In this document: one piece after another, positions 2,364 to 18,542 of the stretch
Layout: each line of letters starts with the position of its first letter
How positions within the stretch are numbered: position 1 is the first letter of the stretch
NCBI GenBank assembly: GCA_015057525.1
Contig: SVEE01000010.1
Location: 1-64,000 of the forward strand
Reading direction: 5' to 3'
Length of the DNA stretch: 64,000 nt
Origin: Lachnospiraceae bacterium
Lineage (GTDB): Bacteria; Bacillota; Clostridia; Lachnospirales; Lachnospiraceae
The notes under the pieces: model-generated
What the model saw: the letters and a program-made list of their open reading frames with translations, nothing else
Told to the model about the DNA's origin: nothing
Database searches by the model: none
Made by a program: the position numbers and the translations under genes

Positions 2364-2416
2364 AAAAAACAGGCTATATTGGAGAGGATACTACTCTTCC
2401 ATATAGCCTATTTTAT
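2364..2416. terminator. Bidirectional terminator between convergent genes
   Basis: An imperfect stem pairs AGGCTATAT (2371-2379) with ATATAGCCT (2401-2409), with further pairing of GGAGAG and CTCTTCC. An A-run on the left and TTTTAT on the right allow it to serve both the glycosyltransferase gene (+) and the long minus-strand operon ending with pilT. Confidence 0.7.
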
Positions 2417-2429
2417 GATGCATCTAATA

Positions 2430-3473
2430 CTATCTTAAGTTTTCAAAATCTTTTACATTTGAACAGTATTTAAGAGCTGTTGTATTTGTAATCTTCTGTT
2501 CTTTAACAAGTCTTCTTAAATCAGAGTTCATAGTGTGCATTCCAAGAGAATATGATCCCTGCATAGATGATATAATCTGATGAGTTTTATTTTCTCTTAT
2601 CTGGTTAGCAATTGCTTCTGTATTGATAAGTATCTCTGTAGCAATTGCCATTCCCTCTCCATCATCACGAGGAATAAGCTGCTGAGTTACAATACCCTTT
2701 AATACGTTAGCAAGCTGTGTTCTCGCCTGAGACTGTCCATGATGTGGATAAGCGTCAATTATACGCTCAATAGTCTGAGGAGCACTTGTTGTATGTAACG
2801 TTGAAAGAACTAAGTGTCCTGTCTCCGCTGCTGTAATCGCTGCACTGATTGTTTCATAGTCACGCATCTCACCAACAAGGATAATATCTGGGTCCTCACG
2901 AAGAGATGAACGAAGAGCTGTGGCAAAGGTATCAACATCCTTACCAACCTCTCTTTGATGAATCATGGATTTAGCATGATAATATACATACTCAATAGGG
3001 TCTTCGATTGTCATAACATGTTTTGCCTGTTTCTTATTAACATAGTCAATCATAGATGCAAGTGTTGTTGTCTTACCGCTTCCCGTAGGTCCTGTTATAA
3101 GAACAAGTCCTCTTGGCTCATTGATAAGCTTTCTTGCTGCTTCAGGTAAATTTAACTCGTCAAAGGTAGGTATTCTATCCTGCAAAATACGATATGTAGC
3201 TGCAAGATTATTTCTCTGATGATAAATGTTCGCTCTAAGTCTTGTTCCACCTATCATCATTGCGAAGTCTAAGTCTTCTCCATTAAGAACCTTCTGTCTC
3301 TGCTTCTCAGTTAATCCTTCAAGAATTAAATCCTCTGACTCTTCTGCAGTTGGTGCTGGACTTAAAATCTCCAGTTTACCAAATTTTCTGAATGCCATTG
3401 CAGTACCAACTGTAATATGCACATCCGATGCTTTCTGTGCCTTTGCTTCTTCAATTATGTCTACAAATCCCAT
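2430..3473 (-). CDS. pilT: PilT-type pilus retraction ATPase
   Basis: The 347-residue protein is a GspE/PilT secretion ATPase of PilT length. It shows the N-terminal 'ASDVHITVG' domain, Walker A GPTGSGKT (residues 128-135), the Asp box TIEDPIEY, Walker B DPDIILVGEMRD (194-205) and the His box GHLVLSTLHT. PilT hexamers power disassembly of type IV pili and twitching motility. No pilin, PilB or PilC gene is in the window, so the motor must serve pili encoded elsewhere. It is the last gene of the long minus-strand operon, 16 bases after the diguanylate cyclase gene, which places a pilus motor under the same control as c-di-GMP synthesis. The start has the site AAGGAG seven bases upstream. Confidence 0.92.
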   Translation of the reverse strand: MGFVDIIEEAKAQKASDVHITVGTAMAFRKFGKLEILSPAPTAEESEDLILEGLTEKQRQKVLNGEDLDFAMMIGGTRLRANIYHQRNNLAATYRILQDRIPTFDELNLPEAARKLINEPRGLVLITGPTGSGKTTTLASMIDYVNKKQAKHVMTIEDPIEYVYYHAKSMIHQREVGKDVDTFATALRSSLREDPDIILVGEMRDYETISAAITAAETGHLVLSTLHTTSAPQTIERIIDAYPHHGQSQARTQLANVLKGIVTQQLIPRDDGEGMAIATEILINTEAIANQIRENKTHQIISSMQGSYSLGMHTMNSDLRRLVKEQKITNTTALKYCSNVKDFENLR

Positions 3474-3489
3474 ATTCTTTCTCCTTTTA

Positions 3490-4788
3490 TTATCTTATTT
3501 CTTCCCCTGGTTTCTTCTTGCTCTTTTTGTCCTCATACATAAGCTTATCTGCTTCATGCATAAGTTCTGAGAAGTCATATCCCTTCTCACCATATACAAC
3601 ACCAATAGCGATAACGCAATCTATACCATCATCTAATGTATTAAGTCTGGCAAGTTCTGCTTCCCAACGTGACTTTAATACATCAACCTCTTCTTTAGTT
3701 ACATTACAAGCAACCAAAAGGTACTCATCGCCGCCCATACGATATCCATGCACTTTATTGCTTGTTACTTTTCTTATACTATTTGCAGCCTTGATTAAAA
3801 GCTTATCTCCAGCTTCATGTCCCTTTGTATCATTAAGAACCTTGAGGTTATTAACATCAAGGTTAAATATACCTATAGAATCAAGATTAGTATATTCTTT
3901 TTCTACCATATCAAGGTACTTGCCTTTGTTGTAAAGTCCAGTTAAACGATCATGCTCACTTTCATAAAGAAGTTTCTCTTTCATGATACCATTTTCCACA
4001 TAGAGACGGATAACTGAAAGAAGTGTATTCTCTTTCATTGAATCACGATCCATATTCGGCCATACATTGAAATATATTGCATATTTCTGTCCTGATACAG
4101 CTCCGTTACAAAGTTTCTTATATGTACTGTCCTGACTACCACCATTAAGTTTCATTACTTCCTGAATTTCAGGAGCAAAGCTATCAAATAAAATGTCGTC
4201 ATCGGCAGACATTGTAAAGGCCTCTTCAACCTTTGCATTTAAATTAATACGGTCATTACTATAAACACTTCCCATTTTGTTGTAGGTAATTATATCCATA
4301 TTACCCTCGCGCTGAATAAGAAAATACGCTTTGCTAGTTTTGAAATAATCTACAAGCATAGGAAGAAGCTCATAAAATGTATTAGAAAGTTTCTCCAAAA
4401 CTGCTGTCTGGAAAGCAGAAAGCTTTTTGAAAAATCCCATATACTTTGTGATATCTCTATTAAGTCCCATGTATTCAGTTATATCTGTCATGAGATGAAT
4501 CTTGTACTTCTTTCCTTCCTTCTCAAATAAAGCTGAGTGGAATCTATAATACTTCTGTGTATCTGTATCTATATTCTCCCATTCTACGGCATCACCATCT
4601 AATTCAAGTTCTGGACACTCTTCCAACCATAAAAACACATTAGTAGCATCCATACCTACAATGCTTTCCCCATATTTTTTGGTAAAATACGAATCAGCAT
4701 AAACGATTTCATCCGAGCCTTCTGCGATTATTAAAACACCACCTACTTTATCGGATACAAATTTAATTATCTCGTTATTAAAATCCAT
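3490..4788 (-). CDS. Diguanylate cyclase (GGDEF domain), soluble
   Basis: The protein has 432 residues from the ATG at 4788, which has the near-perfect site AGAAGGAGG; the longer frame would need a TTG at 4821. The N-terminal 250 residues look like PAS- or GAF-type sensor folds without membrane helices. The C-terminal domain begins at DRLTGLYNK (about residue 280) and carries LDVNNLKVLNDTKGHEAGD and the active-site loop GGDEY (362-366), a conservative change from GGDEF. No RxxD inhibitory site is visible before the loop. It is expected to make c-di-GMP from two GTP. It sits between an anti-anti-sigma gene and pilT, so its product could tune pilus function directly. The effect of Tyr in the loop on activity is unknown. 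Confidence 0.88.
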   Translation of the reverse strand: MDFNNEIIKFVSDKVGGVLIIAEGSDEIVYADSYFTKKYGESIVGMDATNVFLWLEECPELELDGDAVEWENIDTDTQKYYRFHSALFEKEGKKYKIHLMTDITEYMGLNRDITKYMGFFKKLSAFQTAVLEKLSNTFYELLPMLVDYFKTSKAYFLIQREGNMDIITYNKMGSVYSNDRINLNAKVEEAFTMSADDDILFDSFAPEIQEVMKLNGGSQDSTYKKLCNGAVSGQKYAIYFNVWPNMDRDSMKENTLLSVIRLYVENGIMKEKLLYESEHDRLTGLYNKGKYLDMVEKEYTNLDSIGIFNLDVNNLKVLNDTKGHEAGDKLLIKAANSIRKVTSNKVHGYRMGGDEYLLVACNVTKEEVDVLKSRWEAELARLNTLDDGIDCVIAIGVVYGEKGYDFSELMHEADKLMYEDKKSKKKPGEEIR

Positions 4789-4813
4789 ATTTATCCTCCT
4801 TCTGTCACAATAT

Positions 4814-5116
4814 TTATTCAAAGTTTAAAATGTCTGCAAAACCTGTCATTTCAAAAACTTCCATAACATCACTCACAACATTTTTTACAATCATTGTTCC
4901 CTGAAGAGAATTCATCTTTTTCTGAGCTCCAAGTATTGCTCTTAATCCGGAACTTGCCACATAGTCGCAACCTTCCATATCGAGCACAAACTTTTCCACA
5001 CCATCAACAAGTACCTGGTCTAACTCAGCGATTAACTTAGGTGCTGCATTTGTATCAAGTCTACCATTAATCGCCATTACAAGTTCTGTCCCATTTTGTG
5101 TTTTAGTAATTTCCAT
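4814..5116 (-). CDS. STAS-domain anti-sigma factor antagonist (SpoIIAA/RsbV type)
   Basis: The 100-residue protein is a single STAS domain. It keeps the pattern GRLDTNAAP near the N-terminus and the phosphorylation loop DYVASSGLRAIL, in which Ser55 or Ser56 is the expected phospho-acceptor. In SpoIIAA/RsbV systems the unphosphorylated antagonist binds the anti-sigma kinase, and a PP2C phosphatase reactivates it. The kinase gene lies immediately upstream and a SpoIIE-type phosphatase is encoded in the same operon, so all parts of a partner switch are present except a dedicated sigma factor. The start has a full site AAGGAGGT. Confidence 0.92.
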   Translation of the reverse strand: MEITKTQNGTELVMAINGRLDTNAAPKLIAELDQVLVDGVEKFVLDMEGCDYVASSGLRAILGAQKKMNSLQGTMIVKNVVSDVMEVFEMTGFADILNFE

Positions 5117-5161
5117 ATGTAACCTCCTTCAACATTCATAACATCCTTTATTTTACCATGA

Positions 5162-5587
5162 TTACCATGATTTTTCCATAATTAATGTATTTTTTCCTTC
5201 TTCATAGGAATAAAAAATTTCGTCCATTGTCTTTTTTACCATAAAAATTCCCAATCCACCTATTTGACGTTCATCTGCCGATAAAGTAATATCTGGTTCT
5301 TCCTTCTCAAGGGGATTAAACGGAACACCAGAATCTGTAACACATATGGTAGCCTTCCTTACTTCATCTGTGGTTTCAATTTCTAATTTAAGAAAACATT
5401 CACCAGCTTCACCACCATATGCATAATTTGCTACATTTACAAACACTTCTTCCACGCACACGGTTATCTGCATTATCAGTTTTAACGGACAATCCGCCTC
5501 CTCAAGACCTTCCTCTATCATTCCAATGACAGTGTCTAGATTTTCCAAGGATGCAGGTACAGTTATCTCTTTTAATATTTTATCCAT
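5162..5587 (-). CDS. RsbW/SpoIIAB-like serine kinase (anti-sigma factor type ATPase)
   Basis: The 141-residue protein is a HATPase_c_2 domain of the GHKL family. The N box reads CVEEVFVNVANYAYGG (Glu46/47 and Asn51), G1 is DSGVPFNP and G2 is GGLGIFMVKKTMD. Proteins of this kind phosphorylate a STAS antagonist on serine and hold a target such as a sigma factor inactive. It is 45 bases upstream of the STAS gene. No sigma factor gene is adjacent, so the released partner may be something else, perhaps another operon product. Assignment to the kinase family is clear; the target is unknown. Confidence 0.88.
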   Translation of the reverse strand: MDKILKEITVPASLENLDTVIGMIEEGLEEADCPLKLIMQITVCVEEVFVNVANYAYGGEAGECFLKLEIETTDEVRKATICVTDSGVPFNPLEKEEPDITLSADERQIGGLGIFMVKKTMDEIFYSYEEGKNTLIMEKSW

Positions 5588-5613
5588 GCCTTCCCCTCCA
5601 TACTTATGAACAA

Positions 5614-6393
5614 CTACAAATTATTTAGTAGTTCAAGAGATGCCTTCACCTTGTCTACTCCCTTTAATTCAAGTAAAACAGTTGCATCATAAAAATGCCC
5701 TTCATAATGTTCTTTGAATTTATTCCAGTCTATAATTCCTTCCCCTAATGCAAGATGTAAATCACTCTTAAAATCATTATCATTAATGTGAATATGCTTA
5801 ACATATGGTGCAAATGCCTCTACCCAACAATCAATTTTTTTCTCATCTCCAAACACATGAGCATGAGCATAATCAAAGCATATTCCAAAATTATCATATA
5901 CAGAAAGTTTTTCTGCCAACTCAGCAAGAAGCTCCCAATCTGTGTCAAACATATTTTCCATATAAATATTCATATGAGGATATTTTCGAAGCTTTTCCGA
6001 CCAATATAAATAATTGCGCTCTACCCAGGATTTACGATATGATTCCAGTGTAAAGTTGGGAATATAATTAGTGTGAAATACTACGCCTTTAACACCTAAC
6101 TCCTGTGCAATATTCAAACTTTGTTCAATTCTACAATCCGATACTTCATATATTTTTCTATCATCAGAAAAAATTGTCACATCTAAAAATGCACCATGAC
6201 TTGTGCAATAATCTGGCAAATCAATTTGACTCTTGTAATAGTTTATTGTATCAGCAACTTTTTTCTCATCATCCAGTATATGTGGAAGAAAAAAATCATT
6301 ATACTCAAAACCCAAATTATTATTCTTAGCTATTTCTAAATATGCTTCCAGGTTATCTTTGTCGGGAATTATCAAAAGCTTTTTTACTTTCAT
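5614..6393 (-). CDS. Sugar phosphate isomerase/epimerase-like TIM-barrel protein
   Basis: The 259-residue protein belongs to the AP endonuclease 2 / xylose isomerase-like TIM-barrel family. Likely metal ligands sit in the strand ends VVFHTNY, YMENM, CFDYAHAH, HIHINDND and LELKG, in the usual order of His, Glu, Asp/His and Glu. Members isomerise or epimerise sugars and related polyols, or cleave abasic DNA; this short single-domain version fits the sugar group better. It has no obvious place in a signalling operon, yet gaps to both neighbours are about 25 bases. The substrate cannot be told from sequence. Confidence 0.8.
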   Translation of the reverse strand: MKVKKLLIIPDKDNLEAYLEIAKNNNLGFEYNDFFLPHILDDEKKVADTINYYKSQIDLPDYCTSHGAFLDVTIFSDDRKIYEVSDCRIEQSLNIAQELGVKGVVFHTNYIPNFTLESYRKSWVERNYLYWSEKLRKYPHMNIYMENMFDTDWELLAELAEKLSVYDNFGICFDYAHAHVFGDEKKIDCWVEAFAPYVKHIHINDNDFKSDLHLALGEGIIDWNKFKEHYEGHFYDATVLLELKGVDKVKASLELLNNL

Positions 6394-6416
6394 TACTTAT
6401 CTCCTGATTTTATAAA

Positions 6417-8219
6417 TCAATCTCTTTTTACGCTAGTTACAGAGTATACAAAAACACCCTTTGATTTACCCTTTAATGGTATCTCTCCAACCTCTTCAAC
6501 TTCAACTCTATCCTTAACTCTTTCATATACAGCATCGCTAATAAGAACCTGACCTTTCTTTGCATTAGCTTCCAATCTTGCAGCTGTATTAACTGTATCA
6601 CCTATTGCAGTGAAATCCATACGTGTCTCACATCCCACATTTCCTACAACGGCAGGTCCACAGTTTACACCTACACCAAAGCCTACACTACGACCAAATT
6701 CCTTCATAAGCTTATCTTCAAGGGCAGCTCCACCTTCTACTATATCCATAGCCGCACATACCGCTCTGAATTCATAATCATCTAAATCAAATGGCGAATT
6801 GAATACTGCCATTGTGGCATCGCCAACAAACTTATCCAATGTCCCTTTATTCTTAAATATGGCATTAGTAGTTAAATTTAAATAATTATTTAATATGGCA
6901 ACCACTTGCTCTGGTTCAAGAATTTCTGACATCGTTGTAAATCCTCTTATATCTACAAAAAGAACCGCAACATCTCTATTCTCACCACCAAGCTTGATCT
7001 TGAAATCACCCTTTTTAGCTATCTCATCTACAACCTCTGGAGCAACGTACTTCTTAAAAGCATTAATAACTTTTTTACGTTTTATTGTTTCTAAGATATA
7101 CCTTATGGCAAGACAATACATATATGATATTATCAGTATTATTGGCATATATATTAAACTAATTGCTGTTCCATTATTATTTAATGTGGCACCCACAAAA
7201 AGTTCTATACCAATTGCTCCAATTAATAATAAAGTTGCACGCCATATTTTTATTCTCTTAAATATAAAATGTATGATTCCACACAATATTCCAAATATGA
7301 TTCCAAACAAATATGGATTACCGTTTATAGAAAATCTACCCTGCATAAATGCCTGAAGTATATTGGCATGAACCTCCACTCCAAACATCTGCTTACTATA
7401 GCCATTTGGTACATTAAAATTATCCTGCATTCCAGTAGCATATGCACCCACAAGAACTATACTATCCTTAAACACACGACTATCTATATTGCCATTTAGT
7501 ATATCCACCATAGAAATATACTCATAATCGCCTGGCTTTCCAGAATAATTAATAAGTGTTTTCCCGTATTTATCAGTAATAATATCTTCTGGCTGAATGC
7601 CCATTTTAACGCAATATTCTTCGTATATTTTCATGGTGAACATCTTCATTTCTTCACCCTGAAAATCTTCGTGGAGAAGTATTCTTCTTACGATGCCATC
7701 AGAATCCTGAGCGACATTAGCATAACCAACACTTGCACTTTCCCTAAGCTCTTCATATGGATAATAAACTGCCTCTACAGGGAATTCCGACAAACCCTCT
7801 GCATTAGTCTCTACCTTCTCTTTGTACTTTATCTGGGACGCAACGACGATATTACCACTTTCCTTTGCCGCTTCTACAAAAGCAATATCTCCATCAGAAA
7901 TAGTTGCTCCTTCACCAAAATAACCCGAAAAAACAATATCGAATGCAATAACCGAAGGCTTTGCGTCATCATATTTATTCAGCACATTTATTAAATCTGC
8001 ATAATACTGTCTTGACCAAGTGTTAATTGGTCCAAGTTCTTCTAACGTTTTCTCATCAATAGCAATTATCTTAATATCCGTAGTTACACCTCTTGGGCGC
8101 TGATACAATGCATCCTTCAACATATAATCTAATGACGAAAATATATTGAAAACTGTCAGAATGAACACCAACAATATTACAAAAATAGATTCAATAATGT
8201 CACGTAATAACTTTTTCAA
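6417..8219 (-). CDS. CHASE2-domain transmembrane adenylate cyclase (class III)
   Basis: An N-terminal membrane helix is followed by an extracellular CHASE2 sensor of about 270 residues, three membrane helices (about residues 300-375) and a class III cyclase domain. Both metal aspartates (LFVDIRGFT and VGDATMAVF), the adenine-type lysine in TLDKFVGD, the aspartate in MDFTAIGDTVN and the transition-state Asn and Arg in NTAARLE are present, so it should be an active adenylate cyclase making cAMP. The start is uncertain: GAGGTGGGG precedes a TTG at 8219, while the GTG at 8228 overlaps that site. The next gene upstream encodes a cyclic-nucleotide-binding phosphatase, an obvious receiver for the product. 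Confidence 0.88.
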   Translation of the reverse strand: MKKLLRDIIESIFVILLVFILTVFNIFSSLDYMLKDALYQRPRGVTTDIKIIAIDEKTLEELGPINTWSRQYYADLINVLNKYDDAKPSVIAFDIVFSGYFGEGATISDGDIAFVEAAKESGNIVVASQIKYKEKVETNAEGLSEFPVEAVYYPYEELRESASVGYANVAQDSDGIVRRILLHEDFQGEEMKMFTMKIYEEYCVKMGIQPEDIITDKYGKTLINYSGKPGDYEYISMVDILNGNIDSRVFKDSIVLVGAYATGMQDNFNVPNGYSKQMFGVEVHANILQAFMQGRFSINGNPYLFGIIFGILCGIIHFIFKRIKIWRATLLLIGAIGIELFVGATLNNNGTAISLIYMPIILIISYMYCLAIRYILETIKRKKVINAFKKYVAPEVVDEIAKKGDFKIKLGGENRDVAVLFVDIRGFTTMSEILEPEQVVAILNNYLNLTTNAIFKNKGTLDKFVGDATMAVFNSPFDLDDYEFRAVCAAMDIVEGGAALEDKLMKEFGRSVGFGVGVNCGPAVVGNVGCETRMDFTAIGDTVNTAARLEANAKKGQVLISDAVYERVKDRVEVEEVGEIPLKGKSKGVFVYSVTSVKRD

Positions 8220-8245
8220 ATTCCCCACCTCGCGAAAAACGCATC

Positions 8246-9424
8246 TTATTTTCTACTTATATATACCATAGTTATATCATCTGCTTGCATGGCACCATCA
8301 GCAAATTCATCAACCTCTTCATACATATCTTCTACAAATTTTTCAACGTCTGCAGAATCACTTTTTCGCTTGTTTAAAATTTGTTCCAAATATGCATCTC
8401 CGAGGAATTCTTCCTTTGGATTCATTGCCTCTGTAACTCCATCAGTATATAAATACAGACAATCGCCCTTTTCCAACACAAGCTTTTGTTCCTTATATGG
8501 CATATCCTCCATCATACCAAAAACAAGATTTGCCTTAGCTTCAATCATACAAAAATCTCCATCCTGTTTCTGGATAAATGGCTTGTTATGCCCTGCATTA
8601 ATAAATGTGACTTCATTAGTTTCTAAATCCAACACACACATAAATACAGTAACAAACATACCAGCCTCATTTTTGTAACAAAGCTGATTGTTAGTCCTTG
8701 TAGCAACCTCACCAAGTGGCAACCCTAACATAGCATAGTTCTTAATATGAGTTTTAGCCATACTCATAAACATAGCAGCCGGAACGCCCTTGCCTGATAC
8801 ATCAGCAATAAGAAAACAAAAATGTCTATCGTCAATTTTAAACACATCATAAAAGTCACCACCAACCTCTTTTGCAGGTCTCATATGGGCAGTAATTTTA
8901 ACATCCTCTAATCGATTAAATTCTGTAAAATCATGTTCAAGACATCCTTCTTGAATTTGTGTTGCGATAGCAAGCTCTGATTTTATTCTTTCTTGTTCAG
9001 TGATAAGCTTAGTTGTCTTTGTATAAAGCATGTTGATAAACGTGCCATATATTTTTCTATTTGCAGCAGCAATTTCTTCAAAAAGGTTTTTGGAAATATT
9101 GGCACATTTTACATCTGTAGCAGCACGAACGGTAGCGCCTCTTGTATCGTCGTTTATCAATCCAAGTTCACCTATAAAGTCACCAACGCCCAATGTATTA
9201 ATCAAATCACCCTTTTGACTAAGCACATCAACCTTACCATCTAAAACAATATACATCCCATCATTACATTCTGCTCCATAGGTAACAACATCTGTCCCTG
9301 CTGGAATATGTACTTCTGTCATGGCTTCTAGAAAAAGTTTTGTTCCCTCCGCCAATTCTTTATCAGGATCAATCTTAAAAAACTCTTGTATCGCCGGAAC
9401 TTTTCTTAATACCTCTGAATCCAT
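8246..9424 (-). CDS. Cyclic-nucleotide-binding SpoIIE/RsbU-type PP2C phosphatase
   Basis: The protein has 392 residues from the ATG at 9424 (site AGGTGG); the GTG at 9433 is too close to that site. Residues about 15-135 form a cNMP-binding domain with the phosphate-binding cassette FIGELGLINDDTRGATVRA, including the Glu and Arg that contact cyclic nucleotide. After a short coiled coil comes a SpoIIE-type phosphatase with EVGGDFYDVF, VADVSGKGVPAAMFMS and a DGVTEAMN metal motif. Such enzymes dephosphorylate STAS antagonists. With a cyclase gene just downstream and a STAS/kinase pair in the operon, the simplest model is cAMP-controlled dephosphorylation of the antagonist. That link is inference from gene order. 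Confidence 0.9.
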   Translation of the reverse strand: MDSEVLRKVPAIQEFFKIDPDKELAEGTKLFLEAMTEVHIPAGTDVVTYGAECNDGMYIVLDGKVDVLSQKGDLINTLGVGDFIGELGLINDDTRGATVRAATDVKCANISKNLFEEIAAANRKIYGTFINMLYTKTTKLITEQERIKSELAIATQIQEGCLEHDFTEFNRLEDVKITAHMRPAKEVGGDFYDVFKIDDRHFCFLIADVSGKGVPAAMFMSMAKTHIKNYAMLGLPLGEVATRTNNQLCYKNEAGMFVTVFMCVLDLETNEVTFINAGHNKPFIQKQDGDFCMIEAKANLVFGMMEDMPYKEQKLVLEKGDCLYLYTDGVTEAMNPKEEFLGDAYLEQILNKRKSDSADVEKFVEDMYEEVDEFADGAMQADDITMVYISRK

Positions 9425-9433
9425 TTGCTCCAC

Positions 9434-10315
9434 CTACTTCCAATTAATAACTGTGTCTTTCTCTATAGGTACAGTAAAATCATAATCCCAATCACCTGTT
9501 TGTGCAGGCATAAGTGTAGGAACCTGTGCACACTCGCCATGTTTAACTGTCTGCTTACCAAACTCCATACCATTGTACATAAATGTTACAACATGCTCTG
9601 ATGGCACATCATCTATATATCCTAACTCTATTAATGTATTAACAGCATTCTCCGGAAGTTCATCTATACTGATATCTCTTACACCACCCAAATAATCAGT
9701 TGTCGTATCATTTTCATAAATGATAACTTCCTTGCCTTTTGCTACACTTACTTCTTCTTTAGCAACACTTCCATCTGGATAAATAAGTCTTGTAGTTACC
9801 TCTCCATCAAATACGGAAACTTTTGTGTAGCAAACATTCTCCTCATCATAATAAATTTCTACTCGGTATGTTGTACCTCTTACAGCCATTGTTGAGTTTG
9901 GAGTATTGATTTCGTATGAAGATTCTGAATTTAATTTATTCTGAATATCATTAGTAACTGCACCTTCAAGAAGCTCAATTTTTGTTTTAGAATCATCGCT
10001 TGATCCTGTTGCAGTAAGTACAAATTTTGTATTCTCCTCAACATAGATATACTTGTCATCATCAAGCTTTAAAGTCATCTCTCCGGTATTGAGACTAACC
10101 CTATCTCCAGATTCAAGTACCATGTTATTATATGGTTCTATGTCACCAATTGATTCTCTAGAGACAACTCCATCTCCTTCATATTCATAAACCTTTATGA
10201 TTCTATATGCGTCATCTTTTCCCAGAATCAACACTAATACAACTGCAACTATAGCTAAAACCACAACACAGCAAGTAGCAATAATGATATTTCTCTTAGT
10301 TTTTTTATTTTCCAT
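9434..10315 (-). CDS. FecR-domain membrane-anchored extracellular protein
   Basis: The protein has 293 residues from the ATG at 10315, preceded by AGGAGGGG; the longer frame from 10351 would overlap the previous gene. A basic N-terminus and one helix (about residues 8-31) anchor it, and the rest is extracytoplasmic. Residues about 60-170 match FecR, with the run VLESGDRVSLNTGEMTLKL, the hydrophobic strand pattern and TPNSTMAVRGTTYRVEIY. The last 50 residues resemble a small repeat domain ending in DTVINWK. FecR domains in Gram-negatives relay outer-membrane signals, but in Firmicutes they often occur in surface proteins of unknown role. It lies between the secreted repeat protein and the phosphatase. 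Confidence 0.82.
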   Translation of the reverse strand: MENKKTKRNIIIATCCVVVLAIVAVVLVLILGKDDAYRIIKVYEYEGDGVVSRESIGDIEPYNNMVLESGDRVSLNTGEMTLKLDDDKYIYVEENTKFVLTATGSSDDSKTKIELLEGAVTNDIQNKLNSESSYEINTPNSTMAVRGTTYRVEIYYDEENVCYTKVSVFDGEVTTRLIYPDGSVAKEEVSVAKGKEVIIYENDTTTDYLGGVRDISIDELPENAVNTLIELGYIDDVPSEHVVTFMYNGMEFGKQTVKHGECAQVPTLMPAQTGDWDYDFTVPIEKDTVINWK

Positions 10316-10337
10316 TTTTCCCCTCCTAGTAACACTA

Positions 10338-12710
10338 TTACTGTTTAACAAAAGTGTACTCTCCTTCTTCTTTAATGTAGAACGTAATATTTCCGTTATA
10401 ATTTGTTGAATCTCCTTCTAACTGCCACTGCCCTTCCCCAAGATTGTATTGATAATCCTTCAACAAATTAATACTCTTACCTGCAGGTACAACACCTGAC
10501 TTTGCCCATGCCGCTGCAACTACAACAGTTATTTCCTTAAGGTTACCTGCCTTATCAATAACTTCTATTTTGTACTGCATTAAACCACCTTCAGAATTAA
10601 GTTTTAAAACTGCAGTACCATTAGAAATATTTACAACTTCTTCTCCGTTAACTGTTATCTTGCTTAAATTCTCATCCTTAACTGAAATCTCAACATATTC
10701 TGCATAGTACACGTTATCATCTATAGCATCAATGAAAGGAAGCTCAATATCAATGTAAAATGCACCAGTAAAAATCCCTGCTGTCTTCTCTCCTGTAGCA
10801 GTATTCAGTAAATAAAAACCACCTTCAGTCATAGAAGAATCTATTATTAAACTATTTGTATAATTACCATCCAATTTATCAGATACAAGATACCCCTTCG
10901 CTGGTGTTATAGTTACAGGCGTGATATAATATCCATTGTCTCCTGTTGTTCCACTTATGCTGTATGGTGAACTAGGTGCAGGTAAAAAGCTTATACGGAA
11001 GTCATCTGTCAAAACAACCTGACCATATGCATCATTAGCTGGCAAAGTTACCCTAACTGTATAATTACCCACAACAACTGGCTTAGCTGTAGTATATGTG
11101 TCATCGCTAGCTCCTGCTACCTTATATTCGAAAACAGCACTTGTTATATCATTTGTATCGGATGTGAGTTGTATTGTAAATGCTCCGCCATAATAACTAT
11201 CATTTGCATTAAGCACTCCGCTTCCTGCATATTTAAATATAGAAAAATCATCTGTCATTGTTATAGAAAAATAATTTTCATTTTCCGGCAACACCACTCT
11301 CGCTGTGTAATTACCAGCCAATATAGGTTTCACAGTTGTATATGTAGAATCATCTGCCCCAGCCACTTTATATTCTATCTGAGCAGTAGCCACATTATGT
11401 GTATCTGAGTTAACCTCTGTTACAATTGTACCACCATAATATATGTCATTAATTCCAAAAGTTGCGTTTCCATTTATTTTTGAAATTGAGAAATCATCTT
11501 CTAAAATCAATTCTTTATACGTTGCGTCACCTGGCAAAATAGCTCTAGCTGTATAATTGCCTGGTGTTATAGGCTTTGTGGTTGTGTAGGTAGCATCATC
11601 AGTTCCAGCTACCTTGTACTCTACAATCACCCCATCTACTTTGTTTGTAGTTGAAGAAAGTAGATAAGTATACTCTTCACCATATTTAGAATCAGGAACA
11701 ACGAAATTTCCAGATCCATCTATAGTTTTAAAAGTAGCTACCGGAAGATTAATCATAACTTCACCTTCATCATCAGTTGCAAACGTATATGTTAAATTAA
11801 GAGTTGTATCATCAACGAGAGTTGCATTTATTGTTCCGTTACCATCGCTTGTGATTCCATCTGCATAGTCTTCTTCAAAATAATATCCCTCTGCAGCATT
11901 AAACACAAACGTATCAGATGTTTCATCAAACCAATATACCTTATCTGAATTATTCTCAGAGGAAGCCATCACACTAGCATCCTCAATTGCTATCGCTAAA
12001 GCCATTCCGTATTCTTCCAATATAGTGCTATCAAATCCTGCAGATATGGAATAGCTTTTTCCCTCGCACATAACCGAAATTGCCTTATCCGAAAAAATAG
12101 CCGTGTCTCTATCAACGGATAATGTAGCAATATCCATAGCTACGTATTCACCATTTATAGTTAAATCATCTGTAACATATAAACTTCCTGTACCATCAGT
12201 TCCAGCTAAGCTTGCTATTGCAGCAGTGTTACTACCTTCAAAAGTAACCGACGTCTCAGCCAAAATAGTTCCTATTGTACAGCCATTTATAGTAACAGTT
12301 CCCTCGCCAGCTCCAACATTTACAGTTGTGATTTCTCCACCTGTTACAGACACTGCTCCTCCACCTTCTATTGACAATCCCTGTATAGTTCCAGAATTAT
12401 TAACAGTGGTAGTTGCTGAACCATTAACTATATATTGATTTATTGAACCATTATTTGTAACAGTATTTTTTGCAGATTCATTTCCAGAATCAGTTATTGT
12501 TCCACTAACAGAAATAGAATCTCCAATAGTTAAGCTGTTTGTTCCACCACTTGAAAATATATAATCCTCAGATGTGTCTGTCGAAACAGTTAAATTCGTA
12601 CTATCAGAAAGCAACGCTGCTAGAACAACTAAAGTTTCAACCCCAGGCAATTGGCTAACCATTACAATAGCCAATATAGTTGCAATAAATTTTTTGATTC
12701 TTTCTCTCAT
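10338..12710 (-). CDS. Large secreted protein with three 82-residue repeats
   Basis: The 790-residue product begins with a basic, hydrophobic signal-like segment (RERIKKFIATILAIVMVS). The first 200 residues are rich in Thr, Gly, Ser, Asn and Val with short beta-strand periodicity, like parallel beta-helix adhesins. The middle holds three copies of an 82-residue module marked by EYKVAG..D.TYTT.KP...GNYT.R..LP; the copies are spaced exactly 246 bases apart in DNA. The C-terminal part resembles Ig-like or cadherin-like modules (ITPAKGYLVSD, then AVLKLN). No LPXTG or lipobox was seen. It is the first gene of the operon and probably a surface or matrix protein. Function is not known. Confidence 0.75.
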   Translation of the reverse strand: MRERIKKFIATILAIVMVSQLPGVETLVVLAALLSDSTNLTVSTDTSEDYIFSSGGTNSLTIGDSISVSGTITDSGNESAKNTVTNNGSINQYIVNGSATTTVNNSGTIQGLSIEGGGAVSVTGGEITTVNVGAGEGTVTINGCTIGTILAETSVTFEGSNTAAIASLAGTDGTGSLYVTDDLTINGEYVAMDIATLSVDRDTAIFSDKAISVMCEGKSYSISAGFDSTILEEYGMALAIAIEDASVMASSENNSDKVYWFDETSDTFVFNAAEGYYFEEDYADGITSDGNGTINATLVDDTTLNLTYTFATDDEGEVMINLPVATFKTIDGSGNFVVPDSKYGEEYTYLLSSTTNKVDGVIVEYKVAGTDDATYTTTKPITPGNYTARAILPGDATYKELILEDDFSISKINGNATFGINDIYYGGTIVTEVNSDTHNVATAQIEYKVAGADDSTYTTVKPILAGNYTARVVLPENENYFSITMTDDFSIFKYAGSGVLNANDSYYGGAFTIQLTSDTNDITSAVFEYKVAGASDDTYTTAKPVVVGNYTVRVTLPANDAYGQVVLTDDFRISFLPAPSSPYSISGTTGDNGYYITPVTITPAKGYLVSDKLDGNYTNSLIIDSSMTEGGFYLLNTATGEKTAGIFTGAFYIDIELPFIDAIDDNVYYAEYVEISVKDENLSKITVNGEEVVNISNGTAVLKLNSEGGLMQYKIEVIDKAGNLKEITVVVAAAWAKSGVVPAGKSINLLKDYQYNLGEGQWQLEGDSTNYNGNITFYIKEEGEYTFVKQ
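11004..11741 (-). repeat. Three in-frame 246-bp coding repeats
   Basis: The motif encoding EYKVAG plus TYTT occurs near 11600, 11354 and 11108, exactly 246 bases (82 codons) apart. Outer boundaries are approximate. The copies have diverged at the DNA level but keep length, as expected for tandem extracellular domains that arose by duplication. Confidence 0.75.
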
Positions 12711-12764: not shown

Positions 12765-12980
12765 ATATTACGTTACATTATTTTTTTATATTTGTCAAGT
12801 TGTTTTTCTGTGTTTTTTCATAAATGTACTATTATCATAGCATATTATAATGGTTCTGTGTATAAATGCGTGTAATTTAAACATTTTTGCGTATAATTTA
12901 CTGGTTTTTTATTAATTTTTGATGTTTTTTATTACATTTTGTGTTACATTTTATATATCAAAGCAAAAAGAGGTGAGATA

Positions 12981-13715
12981 ATGAACATTGCCATATGCGA
13001 TGACGACCAGCAAAGTTGCGAAATACTTAATATATTGCTGAAAGAATATGCTACGCGAAAGGATATTTCCAACCTTTCTGTCTCCATATTTACAAATGGT
13101 CATGATTTATTAGACACAATACAAAACTGCAGCAACTTCGATATCTGTATATTAGACATTGTGATGCCTGAAGTAAGTGGTATTGAACTTGGAGTAAAGC
13201 TTAGAAATAGCAGATATGATGGCCTTATAATTTATCTCACATCAAGCAGAGACCACGCTATTGATTCATATAAAGCCAAAGCATTTAATTACATACTGAA
13301 ACCTGTTATACCAGAAGATCTTTATTCTACTTTAGATGATGCAATAAAAAACATATCTAGCAAAGTTGATAAAAACATCATCGTCAAAACAAAAGATGGT
13401 AATGTTCGTATTTCTACAAGCAGCATATTATATGTAGAATTATGCAAGAGAATCCTAGTATATCATCTTGCTGACGGTTCATCTGTAGAAAGTATATACA
13501 TTAGAGTTCCTTTTGCAGAAGCCACCAAGGAGCTTCTTGAAGATAAACATTTCATGAAATGCGGAACAGGAAATGTTATAAACCTTTCTCAGATAACCAT
13601 GGTATGCAACGATGAAATATTTTTCAAAGATGACTTTAATGTTTTCTTTAGCAAAAAAATATGTAACGAAGTCCGTACTGTATGGACAGATTACTGGTTT
13701 AACAAAGAGCTATAA
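12981..13715 (+). CDS. LytTR-family response regulator
   Basis: The 244-residue protein starts at the ATG at 12981 after GAGGTGAG. The N-terminal receiver has the acidic cluster CDDDQ, the phospho-acceptor in CILDIVMPEVSG, the Thr/Ser in YLTSS and the lysine in NYILKPV. The C-terminal half (from about residue 130) has the LytTR pattern IVKTKDGNVRISTSSILYVE, then a YIRVPFAEA stretch and a final beta-rich region. These regulators bind DNA as AgrA/LytR do and usually control surface or quorum functions. There is no adjacent sensor kinase. It is divergent from the secreted-protein operon, whose promoter region holds an inverted repeat, so regulation of that operon is a reasonable inference. Confidence 0.9.
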   Translation: MNIAICDDDQQSCEILNILLKEYATRKDISNLSVSIFTNGHDLLDTIQNCSNFDICILDIVMPEVSGIELGVKLRNSRYDGLIIYLTSSRDHAIDSYKAKAFNYILKPVIPEDLYSTLDDAIKNISSKVDKNIIVKTKDGNVRISTSSILYVELCKRILVYHLADGSSVESIYIRVPFAEATKELLEDKHFMKCGTGNVINLSQITMVCNDEIFFKDDFNVFFSKKICNEVRTVWTDYWFNKEL

Positions 13716-13717
13716 TT

Positions 13718-13752
13718 GTCCACCCTACAAACGCATAGGGTGGACTTTATAT
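13718..13752 (+). terminator. Intrinsic terminator of the LytTR regulator gene
   Basis: A perfect 10-base stem, GTCCACCCTA (13718-13727) with TAGGGTGGAC (13736-13745), is followed by TTTATAT. It begins three bases after the stop codon and also separates the convergent HD-GYP gene. Confidence 0.8.
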
Positions 13753-13769
13753 ATTAACACACATTATAA

Positions 13770-14903
13770 CTAATTTAAGGTACTATGTATAATTTCCTTT
13801 AAAGCTAGCGGCAAGAATGGTTTAGTTAAATAGTCATCCACGCCAAGCTTTGTAGCTCTCTCAATGGTCTCAATTTTCCTATCACCTGTCATAAGAACTA
13901 TAGGCATATCATACTTTTGTCTTATGAGTTCCACGACAGAAAAACCATCCATACCCGGCATCTTTACATCCATAAGAATCATATCAATATCACAGTTTTC
14001 AAGAATTTTTAACGCCTCCATGCCGTTGGTTGCTCCAACAACCTGATACATAGGGGTATCCTTGAGTATGACCTCAACCATCTTGATATTCATATCCTCA
14101 TCATCTACTACAAGTATCTTCTTTTGTAAGTTTTTGATCTCGCGCATAGTATAATTCTTATCTTCATTTATCATCTGTAGCATTATATCTGCAATCTTAG
14201 GGTCAAATTGGGTTTCTTTACCCTTTTCTATCTCTGTCCTAATAACCTGCTGTGATAAATATTTTCTATAGCTTCTGTTACTTGCCATAGCATCATAGGA
14301 ATCTGCCACTCCGATTATTCTTGCAATTTCAGGAATATTATCTCTCTTTAATCCGTTTGGATATCCTGTTCCATCGTATCTCTCATGGTGAAATTTGGCA
14401 CCATTCTTAATATTAGGGTCATCAAATATATCTTTTAATATATGATATCCAGCAACTGGATGAATCTTAATCTGTTGATACTCCTCATCTGTTAATTTCC
14501 CAGCTTTATTGATTACCTCGACAGGTATTCTAATTTTACCTACGTCATGGAGAAGACCCGCTATATAAATAATTTCTTGTTCTTTATCGGACTTGTCCAA
14601 TCTTCTGGCTATCTCCTTAGAATACTCAGCAACTCTTAAGGAGTGACCGTTTGTATATCTATCCTTTGCATCTATAGTTTTCGCTAAAGCTTGAATAATC
14701 TTGCGATTCATATCCTCAACCTTATCATTGCTTTCCTGTTCTAAACGAATAGATTTACTTTTACTCGAATAAGAAACAAAAAAGAACACTATGAGTAAAA
14801 TCGATACACCTGTGGATACTAATATATTTTTGCCTGTTACAAATAATGCTATAATGGCACAAACCACAGTTAATAAATACCACTTATTATTAATCTTATT
14901 CAT
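13770..14903 (-). CDS. HD-GYP phosphodiesterase with C-terminal receiver domain
   Basis: The 377-residue protein has two closely spaced N-terminal membrane helices (about residues 12-44). Then come an HD-GYP domain with GLLHDVGKI, HPVAGYHIL, FHHERYDGTGYPNGL and GVADSYDAM, and a receiver domain at residues about 263-377 with VVDDEDMN, phospho-acceptor DMILMDVKMPGMDG, VLMTGD and YLTKPF. HD-GYP domains hydrolyse c-di-GMP. The order is unusual, since response regulators of this type normally carry the receiver first and are soluble. It follows the hybrid kinase gene by 44 bases and is the natural acceptor of its phosphate, which would couple that sensor to c-di-GMP breakdown. Confidence 0.9.
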   Translation of the reverse strand: MNKINNKWYLLTVVCAIIALFVTGKNILVSTGVSILLIVFFFVSYSSKSKSIRLEQESNDKVEDMNRKIIQALAKTIDAKDRYTNGHSLRVAEYSKEIARRLDKSDKEQEIIYIAGLLHDVGKIRIPVEVINKAGKLTDEEYQQIKIHPVAGYHILKDIFDDPNIKNGAKFHHERYDGTGYPNGLKRDNIPEIARIIGVADSYDAMASNRSYRKYLSQQVIRTEIEKGKETQFDPKIADIMLQMINEDKNYTMREIKNLQKKILVVDDEDMNIKMVEVILKDTPMYQVVGATNGMEALKILENCDIDMILMDVKMPGMDGFSVVELIRQKYDMPIVLMTGDRKIETIERATKLGVDDYLTKPFLPLALKEIIHSTLN

Positions 14904-14947
14904 AAATACTTCCTATTTTTACACAACAAAATAAAAACACTTATATT

Positions 14948-17446
14948 CTACTCAAGACATTTAACTAAAGTTTTCGCTTCTTGGTATGTATCCTCATATA
15001 ATTTCATAAATTCGTCATGGGTAGATATTAAGTAATCCAAAGCTTTTTTCTCTCCCGCTAAATACTTATTCCCCTGTTCCTCTATATCAGCCGCAAACCA
15101 AGAAAGTTTCTCTCCTCCTATATTCAAGGATGTAGACTTAACAGCATGAACATACGTAACATAGTTCTCCCATTGCTTACATTCAAAGCTAGTTGTAAGT
15201 TGCTCTACCTTCTTAGCTGCAAAGTTACAATAGATTTCTAAGAAGGACTTATACATATCCTTTCTTCCTGAGCTATACTTAAGTCCTATGGATTGGTTTA
15301 TTAATTGAACATCTATCCTATTCTCAGACTTTATCTCTATATCAATATCCTTTTCCGCAATTTTCTTCTGCTTATCCTTAGGAACAAAATTCTTTAAAAT
15401 TCTCTCTAGCCTTTTTGTATCAATAGGCTTACTCAAATAATCATCAAAACCCTTTGAAATATACATTTCCTTTACTCCCACAATAGCATTTGCAGTAAGA
15501 GCAACAATTTTTGCATTTTTCTTTAAGCCCATCTCCGTGATACATTCGAGGGTTTCAATACCGTTCATCTCTGGCATCATATGATCCAGAAAAACCACAT
15601 CATAGGAGTTGTGTCTCATAAGTTCTATACATTCTTTACCACTGCTACAAGTAGTAACCATGGCCTGAGTTTCCTTAAGTAGATTCTCCATAACTAATAG
15701 ATTCATCTCATGGTCATCAACAACAAGTATCCTTGCCTCAGGTGCCACAAAACTTTCTGTATGGATGGAATCATTTACAGATTCGTCTATAGCTTTAAAA
15801 TCTCCTATAGGCTGTGAATTTATAATTTTTTGAGATATAATAGTTGTAAATACGGTTCCTTCTCCATACACGCTGGACACCTTAATATTTCCACCCATAT
15901 ATTGTACCAGCTTGTTAACTATAGCCAAACCCAAACCTGTACCTTCTATATTACGGTTCTTTTCTAAGTCAACTCTCTCGAAATCATCAAATAACTTACC
16001 CAAACTTTCTTCTTTAATTCCAATACCAGTATCCTCTATTTTTATCCTAAGCTTTACATTATCTCCATCTCTTTTTCCATCTACACACAAAGTAACCATA
16101 CCTTCCTTTGTGTATTTTACTGCGTTATTGAGCAGATTAATCATAACCTGTCTAACCTTGCTCACATCACCATGAAGCTCACACGGTAGCTTATCATTTA
16201 TGTTTACATTGAACTTAAGTCCTTTTTCACTGGCAATTGGTTCTATCACATTTACCACATCATTCAGTAGACTATTTAAAGCGTAGGTTCCCTCTTCCAC
16301 TTCCATTTTACCTGCTTCTATTTTTGAGAAATCAAGTATACCATTGATTATTTCAAGAAGATTCTCACTAGCATGCTTAATATTTTTAGCATATCCACGA
16401 ATATTTTCATCCTGAGACTCCCTTAACACCATTTCATTCATACCTATAATTCCATGGATAGGGGTTCTAATTTCATGAGACATATTTGCTAAAAATTCAC
16501 TCTTTGCTTTATTTGCATTCTCTGCTTCTTCCTTGGCCTCTCTTAATTCGTCACTTTCTTTAGCCTTCTCTGCGGTGATAAAAAGGTAAACTGTTATAAT
16601 AGCAAAAAGCACAAGCAGTAATCCAAACACCCAAAGCACAAGGGTTGTAATATACATTATTCCATCGGACAACGCAGCCTCAGGAATCACACCTACAGCA
16701 TATATTCCATGCTCTGCAACCTCAGAAACAAACATAAAATATCTACCATCGTCACATTTTACAAAGGTACTAGCTGCCGTATCCACATCCATTTTTTCTT
16801 TTATCACCTTAAATCCCTGCTGTATTTCCTCCTGCTGCAAGAATTCACCACTATACTTGGAATCCACAAAGGGAATTACTATCTTAAAATCAGTATCAGC
16901 CCATAACACATGACCCTCTCCATCATAACAATCTCTTCCAAAGGTTTTTGATAAAACAGATTGAGCATACTGCTTATAGAGAACAAATTTTACATTTTCT
17001 CCATGGTACACCGGCACAGAAAAAACCATTCCTCCATCCTCAACATAGGAAACTACCGCTTCTCCTCTAAAGGAACGTTTTACACCTTCATACAAACTCA
17101 TATCTAAGGGTGCACCTGTAAGCACGCTTCCGTCCAACCTTAATACACCTACAGAAATACCCTCCTGCTCTTGTTTTACAGTTCGAAGAACTTCTTCAGG
17201 ATTATCCCAGTTGTTCTCCAACGCTTTCGCTATATTATTTAGCTGAACGAATTGAATACTAATAGTCTGATCAATTTGCTCAGATATTAATGTAGACTGC
17301 TCTGTCACTTGCTTCTCCATATGTTCTATAAGAAGTTGATTTAATTTCATAGCAAGCAAGCTTCCTACGAAAACCATCACGACAAACAACGAGGTTACAC
17401 TAATAACTGTTCTTAAATTTGAAAATCTTTTTCTATTCTTCCCCAT
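14948..17446 (-). CDS. Hybrid sensor histidine kinase with receiver and Hpt domains
   Basis: The protein has 832 residues from the ATG at 17446; the longer frame uses a TTG too close to the AAGGTG site. A membrane helix (about 15-35) and another near 270-295 bracket a 230-residue extracellular, probably Cache-type, sensor. The kinase core has [33 protein letters not shown], an N box [10 protein letters not shown]1 EDTGIGI and G2 [10 protein letters not shown] receiver domain ([32 protein letters not shown]) and a C-terminal Hpt domain ([13 protein letters not shown]) complete a four-step relay. It overlaps the upstream binding-protein gene by 14 bases. The HD-GYP/receiver protein encoded downstream is the likely output. 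Confidence 0.92.
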
Positions 17447-18542
17447 ATATTTCAACACCTTCTACAAACCAGTCCATACCATTCATAAGTACTTGATCAC
17501 TGATTATCTCATCTTCATTACAACGAATATTTCCATCTTTGTCATAAATAATCCCTGAGAAAATTCTATCACCCGACAAAATTTCTTGCTTAGCTATTTC
17601 TATATCTGCCAATGCCTCCTGGGTTACAATCGGAGACATATCATTCAAGCCTATAGCATCCTTTTCCAAGCCAAACCAATATACATTTACCACATCTGAT
17701 TTGCCACGAACATAATCAGCTAATAATTCTTTATATGTTACATCCCATCTAAATTCCACTGTAGCCAGAAAGTTGTCACTAGCTCCCTCATAGCTTTCAT
17801 GATATCCTATAGAATACACACCATTTTCCTCTGCCACTTCCACAACATTTGGCTGATTCTGGTGATATGCTAATACGTCCACATTTTCATTATCTATCAG
17901 CTCCTGAGCAAGTTGCTTTTCCTTATCTGGATCACTCCATGAATTACTCCAAGCCACTATAACCTTCGCATCTGGATTTGACCTTTTTACACCTAAGGTA
18001 AACGCATTTATTCCTCTATTCACCTCACTATTTGGCATAGCAGCAACATATCCCACCGTATCAGTTTCAGACATATATCCAGCTATAATTCCTGCTAGAT
18101 ATCTAGCCTGATAAACTCTTGCAAAATAGCAATTCAAATTATCTCCATAATAATCAAAGGACTCAGAGTAAAATGTAATTTCTGGATATTCCTCAACCAC
18201 ATCAACCACCTCTGCCGCATATCCATAGCTTGACAAAATAATAATGTCCACATCTTCATCTGCCAGTTCCCTAATAGCTACTTCACACTGTCCACAATTT
18301 TCTTTAATGTTTTCTTTAACAATTAGGTCTATCTTAAGTTCCTGACAGGCGGTACTAACCCCTTCATAATGAAGTCCATTCCAGCCCTCCTCACTAGCTG
18401 AGCCAGACATTACAAAACCTACTTTTATAACATCATCCTCTTTCTTACCACGGCCCTCAAAGGTAATAATCACAAGCACTGTTACAACAAAGATAACAAC
18501 TGCCAATATAAGCAAGATGTTTTTTAATTTTTTATTCTTCAT
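17433..18542 (-). CDS. Membrane-anchored BMP-family binding protein (first of two)
   Basis: The 369-residue protein has a basic N-terminus and a single helix (about residues 8-28) with no lipobox cysteine, so it should stay anchored by that helix. The rest resembles BMP/PnrA nucleoside-binding proteins: [64 protein letters not shown] and a final [13 protein letters not shown] proteins usually feed an ABC importer, but no permease or ATPase gene is here. Instead the gene overlaps the hybrid kinase gene by 14 bases, so a ligand-presenting role to that kinase is likelier than transport. The ligand may be a nucleoside, by family only. Confidence 0.85.

Follow-up and report, generated by a model that had tools for sequence, protein, structure and literature searches.

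In the genome of a Lachnospiraceae bacterium, nine adjacent genes may constitute a self-contained relay that converts a cAMP signal into a c-di-GMP signal. We put the chances of this reading at about even. The parts, their key residues and their neighbourhood are observed directly, and we infer the couplings between them from those residues, from the neighbourhood and from precedents. The larger find of the locus is a predicted class of phosphodiesterases: its TIM-barrel protein is best read as a structurally new kind of cAMP phosphodiesterase. The full proposal would be that a new cAMP phosphodiesterase class, built on the metal centre of endonuclease IV, replaces MBL-fold enzymes beside Lachnospiraceae cyclases, and that a cNMP-gated SpoIIE/RsbW/STAS switch, whose direct target is a diguanylate cyclase (DGC), puts c-di-GMP synthesis under the control of cAMP. 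In this complete form it is tentative and falls somewhat short of an even chance.

The window, meaning the whole stretch of 64,000 nucleotides analysed, covers bases 1-64000 of the 82,813-base contig C5 in an assembly of 2.35 Mb and 21 contigs (genome G000). An earlier sequence-only reading had described here nine minus-strand genes with gaps of 9-45 bases, running to a single terminator and holding a partner switch that lacks a sigma factor. This description stands. ORF calling finds the nine frames in place (Table 1), and the gaps are of that size if ATG starts are taken for fecR (10315), phos (9424) and dgc (4788); from its listed GTG start, phos would abut fecR. Folding of the strand past pilT gives a hairpin followed by T's that none of 200 shuffles equalled; the terminator scan gave no entry at the operon's end. 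All the domains that had been named score above their Pfam cut-offs: T2SSE, GGDEF, STAS, HATPase_c_2, AP_endonuc_2, CHASE2 with Guanylate_cyc, cNMP_binding with SpoIIE, and FecR (the dgc query started 3 bases inside the gene). The product of surf has no Pfam or NCBIfam match; it is probably a surface or secreted input component. In Pfam and NCBIfam searches of these nine genes, none matches a sigma-factor family.

Table 1. Features of the operon and its terminator, in the order of transcription
Feature	Position	Strand	Description
surf	10338..12710	-	790 aa; signal-like N-terminal stretch and repeats (by eye); without family match
fecR	9434..10315	-	FecR domain (PF04773, 44.5 bits); N-terminal hydrophobic stretch (by eye)
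phos	8246..9433	-	cNMP-binding and SpoIIE/PP2C phosphatase (PF00027, 61.6 bits; PF07228, 173.9 bits)
cyc	6417..8228	-	CHASE2 sensor and class III nucleotide cyclase (PF05226, 164.2 bits; PF00211, 88.3 bits)
tim	5614..6393	-	AP_endonuc_2 TIM barrel (PF01261, 82.7 bits); EndoIV-type metal-ligand set; candidate cAMP phosphodiesterase
rsbW	5162..5587	-	HATPase_c_2 partner-switch kinase (PF13581, 83 bits)
stas	4814..5116	-	single-domain STAS antagonist (PF01740, 59.7 bits); probable phosphosite S55
dgc	3490..4788	-	diguanylate cyclase, C-terminal GGDEF (PF00990, 90.2 bits); linker residues 102-148; probable switch target
pilT	2430..3473	-	type IV pilus retraction ATPase; T2SSE (TIGR01420, 434.2 bits)
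intrinsic terminator	2366..2414	-	hairpin then T's; -22.6 kcal/mol, z -6.3

The model offered by the sequence-only reading depended on the neighbourhood being conserved in related genomes, and it is. A phosphatase query against 299 genomes of the family (its own included) gave full-length relatives, with both the cNMP and the SpoIIE part, in eight genomes among the matches listed, again counting its own; the other matches listed were mostly the SpoIIE phosphatase part alone. A scan of contigs added four further full-length relatives (L043-L046). Genes for the phosphatase, the cyclase, RsbW, the STAS protein and the DGC lie together in seven loci: the window, L034 (G044), L035 (G125), L036 (G180), L037 (G200), L043 and L044. 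Since L043 and L044, both from Lachnospiraceae MAGs, are near copies (their DGCs are 98% identical), these seven loci represent six lineages. A fixed gene order is another matter. The five core genes stay together, but the order in G125 is cyc-tim-stas-rsbW-phos-dgc, and tim is in line in four of the seven loci, whereas L036 and L044 carry it on the other strand, a little way downstream. The gene is not visible in L043, whose record stops inside pilT. The pilT gene is present in four of the seven (window, L036, L043, L044), the operons of L034, L036, L037, L043 and L044 share the C-terminal part of surf, and FecR genes are found near many CHASE2 cyclases. L046, from Lachnospiraceae NC2008, has phos-tim only and L045 phos alone. 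Among diverged relatives, G111 has phos-MBL-FecR with a CHASE2 cyclase further on, while G063 and G048 have phos-MBL, followed in G063 by a frame that matches the FecR profile. (ORF calling drops frames overlapped by a longer one; the phosphatase of L038 is such a frame.) These comparisons support the view that cAMP synthesis, the phosphatase with its cNMP domain and the STAS/RsbW switch form one conserved unit.

The residues on which such a unit would depend are kept. In the cyclase D426, K466, D470, D538, N547 and R551 are invariant in 8/8 sequences; we take them to be the two metal Asp residues, the Lys/Asp purine pair and the transition-state Asn and Arg. The protein thus has the residue set of a class III adenylate cyclase, and its nearest solved chain is CyaB (3r5g). 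Besides the operon cyclase, no PF00211 protein was found in G180 or G044; G000 has one more class III cyclase domain, which is weaker and sits in a HAMP protein. In the phosphatase G88, E89, R98, A100 and T101 are invariant in 8/8, E89 and R98 being presumably the Glu and Arg of the phosphate-binding cassette; these residues are those of a cAMP-binding cNMP domain, and ligand binding is predicted. PF00027 searches of G000 and G180 found no protein apart from the phosphatase, and so no CRP-type receptor, in either genome. RsbW keeps E46, N51, D85, G87, G110, G111 and G113 in 7/7. S55 of the STAS protein, also invariant in 7/7, aligns with a residue that is Ala in the SpoIIAA chain of 1tid/1til, a column that we take to be S58, the phosphosite. 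The preceding Asp is not kept, being Ala or Ser instead. The alignment points to S55 as the phosphorylatable serine of a DSxG site, and it is probably the phosphosite.

If correct, the relay would work as follows. An outside signal sensed by the surface protein, FecR and CHASE2 would set the activity of the class III cyclase. The cAMP formed would bind the SpoIIE phosphatase at its cNMP domain, altering how it acts on S55 of the STAS protein, which RsbW would re-phosphorylate. One form of the STAS protein would then bind the conserved linker of the DGC and turn it on, and this step would turn the cAMP signal into one of c-di-GMP. Hydrolysis of cAMP by the TIM-barrel enzyme, which has an endonuclease-IV-type metal site, would reset the relay.

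The sequence-only reading had listed the TIM-barrel gene and given it no role. Across the family the gene tracks adenylate cyclases. Close relatives occur in 30 of the 299 genomes; a class III cyclase is present in all 30, as against 54/299 overall, and lies within 3.5 kb of the TIM gene in 26 of them. The linkage extends to two cyclase types other than CHASE2 (L154, L156, L158), with a second-tier TIM protein in L177 and L199. Nine aligned positions, which we take to be the metal ligands of endonuclease IV, are kept in 34/34 TIM relatives, just as in 5/5 Nfo rows. The best curated matches of the window's protein are CbiR (NF041277, 37.8 bits against a cut-off of 105) and Nfo (TIGR00587, 35.8 against 129.65), both below cut-off, and 16 of the 27 TIM genomes searched also have a genuine Nfo as a separate protein. 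The protein shares the AP_endonuc_2 fold with Nfo, CbiR, TTHB071 and MJ1311, and the nine ligand positions with Nfo, but it scores far below the cut-offs of Nfo and CbiR and differs from both in its linkage to adenylate cyclases.

In 18 other cyclase genomes an unrelated metallo-beta-lactamase (MBL) protein, such as that at 841-1722 of L040, stands in the place of TIM, and the two were never found together. This protein belongs to PF12706 (3/3 tested), as do the atypical class II phosphodiesterases of the Rv1339 type. Its match to the model for cyclic nucleotide-degrading phosphodiesterases (NF041851, cut-off 400 bits) is weak: one of the two proteins tested scored 53.8 bits over its full length and the other 29.1, and RNase Z models scored higher in both. 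Because of the cyclase linkage, the displacement by MBL and the metal site, we predict that TIM is a cAMP phosphodiesterase, and a cAMP hydrolase is its likely activity. Three points count against this. The swap between TIM and MBL is mostly one phylogenetic event in a cyclase tree of 49 CHASE2 rows (14 cyclases without detected CHASE2, and those of L043 and L044, were left out); the MBL protein scores best as RNase Z; and outside the family cyclases mostly come without a TIM gene.

A serious contender, to which we give somewhat less than an even chance, is that TIM has some other substrate, being either a sugar-phosphate isomerase or epimerase, or an enzyme acting on c-di-GMP or pGpG. Many of its fold neighbours are epimerases, and the RNase Z score of the displacing protein would fit here as well. 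As for c-di-GMP, a GAF-HD-GYP protein follows TIM or is fused to it in 9/34 cases (12/34 if adjacency on either side or strand is counted), and a GAF-GGDEF protein is adjacent in 4/34. The association with cyclases is nevertheless the stronger one and holds for the two other cyclase types too, and TIM keeps all nine of the ligands present in genuine Nfo proteins. Moreover, the two best curated matches, CbiR and Nfo, although below cut-off, are both enzymes that cut phosphodiesters (PMC7733943, as far as its available text describes them).

The output of the switch is another point where the sequence-only reading needs to be changed. It had proposed that cAMP activates the phosphatase, that the STAS protein is dephosphorylated and that the freed kinase then changes c-di-GMP or pilus function. 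The conserved cAMP/phosphatase/STAS/RsbW unit agrees with its first part, but an action of the STAS protein on the neighbouring DGC is more likely than one of the freed kinase; the circuit is mostly plausible if the DGC is taken as what the switch likely targets directly. All seven DGCs have a GGDEY or GGDEF active site and none has the RxxD inhibitory site (I-site). GGDEF is the only Pfam domain found in the protein. A structural model of moderate confidence, in which good fold-list matches are confined to the GGDEF region, suggests three further elements ahead of it, the first PAS-like, the second a helical linker and the third GAF-like. Conservation is concentrated in the linker, where 25 of 47 positions (102-148) are invariant, compared with 12/101 in residues 1-101, 9/105 in 149-253 and 69/148 in the GGDEF part. 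A profile of the DGC N-terminus, searched in 168 genomes, matches in five. Three matches are operons of the window type and the others are in G116 and G041, and all five lie with STAS and SpoIIE genes. In G116 the DGC is beside the STAS gene, with SpoIIE about 5 kb on; in G041 it is between STAS and SpoIIE-RsbW. RsbW was detected in the latter and not in the G116 stretch, and no cNMP domain was detected in either phosphatase. Hence it is the partner switch, and not cAMP, that this DGC subfamily seems to accompany. Gene conservation in 7/7 operon loci and two further clusters is what a STAS-controlled DGC should display, and the DGC is probably the target of the switch, with the STAS protein predicted to act on it directly.

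For the form of the STAS protein that would activate the DGC, two systems of Pseudomonas aeruginosa offer precedents of opposite polarity. The locus resembles SiaABCD in that a phosphatase, a kinase, an antagonist and a DGC would act together. It differs in the cNMP domain of its phosphatase, its RsbW-like kinase and the build of its DGC, and the curated cut-offs of SiaABCD are not reached (SiaA, NF038263, 41.4 against 700 bits; SiaD, NF038266, 67.6 against 290 bits). With HsbA-HsbD it shares a STAS protein and, putatively, a DGC target; there the phosphorylated form binds, and the system takes its input from the HptB pathway instead of from cAMP. According to the available text of PMC5085249, the anti-anti-sigma STAS protein HsbA binds the DGC HsbD, with biofilm and motility outputs, and the S56D variant of HsbA binds more strongly while S56A loses binding. 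If phosphorylated STAS likewise activates the DGC of the window, cAMP-stimulated dephosphorylation would stop c-di-GMP synthesis. This possibility deserves some weight, though we lean away from it: in SiaC-SiaD, where the antagonist binds the stalk of the DGC, the polarity is reversed and phosphorylation prevents binding (PMC8457831, in its available part).

The switch might also be a classical one, in which RsbW holds a sigma factor or another regulator encoded elsewhere, STAS frees it, and the DGC is merely a co-regulated neighbour. STAS and RsbW do match the SpoIIAA/RsbV and RsbW/SpoIIAB families, and the STAS serine, HATPase kinase and SpoIIE-type phosphatase are all as in those sigma switches. 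In 35 of 80 loci, relatives of the phosphatase, RsbW and STAS occur together with no dgc relative detected, which counts against the DGC as target. Yet, unlike RsbV/RsbW and SpoIIAA/SpoIIAB, the operon has no sigma gene among its nine and its apparent target is a DGC, which is retained despite the shuffled order in G125 and whose N-terminus lies with STAS and SpoIIE even in the differently wired G116 and G041. We therefore regard the classical arrangement as unlikely. It is quite improbable that these are only co-located signalling genes in an easily kept cluster: PilT, FecR, the surface protein and TIM do come and go or move among loci, but the five core genes persist through reordering in 7/7, with their residues conserved and a single cNMP-domain protein found.

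PilT, present in 4/7 loci, is a peripheral member of the operon. It exceeds the PilT/PilU cut-off (319.1 bits), and a second PilT lies beside PilB elsewhere in the genome (G000:C6:344798). That PilB, at 949-2676 of L127, carries an MshEN domain (57.7 bits), which binds c-di-GMP in other bacteria. In loci with pilT, type IV pili may respond to c-di-GMP via this domain of PilB, the operon PilT supplying retraction. HsbD modulates type IV pili, as reported in the available text of PMC5085249.

A limited search of titles and abstracts for cAMP in Lachnospiraceae, with adenylate cyclase and c-di-GMP, found no literature on the subject. If the relay is real, a single locus would hold every step by which an outside signal passes via cAMP and a partner switch into c-di-GMP, and Firmicutes would have a partner switch whose controlled output is an enzyme and not a sigma factor. 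The TIM-barrel family, for its part, leads us to expect, in relatives of gut and rumen bacteria, an enzyme that degrades cAMP and belongs to a new fold class.

A further candidate cAMP receptor is offered by the cNMP-domain proteins that adjoin cyclase-TIM pairs (a class III cyclase gene beside that of the TIM-barrel protein) at related loci L035, L151 and L229. Within the window itself, the regulators directly upstream of the nine-gene operon may provide additional c-di-GMP control in its neighbourhood.

Features of the window and of related loci
Locus	Position	Feature	Remarks
L035	4581-5723	cNMP-domain protein	DUF2225 fused
L151	3801-4931	cNMP-domain protein	DUF2225 fused
L229	8798-9925	cNMP-domain protein	identified with a profile built in this analysis
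Window	12939-17458	LytTR response regulator (divergent), then HD-domain (HD_5) response regulator, hybrid histidine kinase	directly upstream of operon
Window	27804-30134	GGDEF fused to periplasmic-binding-like sensor	
L036	5995-9282	large surface protein	1095 aa
L036	10511-13741	large surface protein	1076 aa
L149	5777-8074	TIM barrel naturally fused to GAF-HD-GYP	immediately after CHASE2 cyclase
L228	5049-6239	partial CHASE2 joined to TIM barrel	single frame; TIM barrel without residues 41-116

The operon of the window has one surface protein, whereas the same-genus relative (L036) has two, both interleaved with the phosphatase and cyclase genes. The TIM barrel also occurs in a fusion (L149); in the joined frame of L228, the catalytic parts of cyclase and TIM barrel are jointly incomplete.

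Class III cyclases without CHASE2 adjoin a TIR-domain gene in L154, L156, L158, L169, L185, L194 and L195. A GAF-GGDEF gene is additionally present in all of these except L185 and L194, and a TIM barrel in the first three. In L158, the cyclase/TIR locus examined with PADLOC, the TIR protein matches SAVED-TIR and Thoeris models, while the cyclase matches Pycsar models. Possibly, cyclase/TIR loci constitute a two-messenger defence or signalling system.

Clusters of a metallo-beta-lactamase protein (MBL) and GAF-HD-GYP with a CHASE2 cyclase recur in L173, L175, L176, L182, L183, L184, L186, L190, L193 and L204, frequently with FecR. Their cAMP receptor may be the GAF domain. These clusters are a second cAMP/c-di-GMP module within the Lachnospiraceae.
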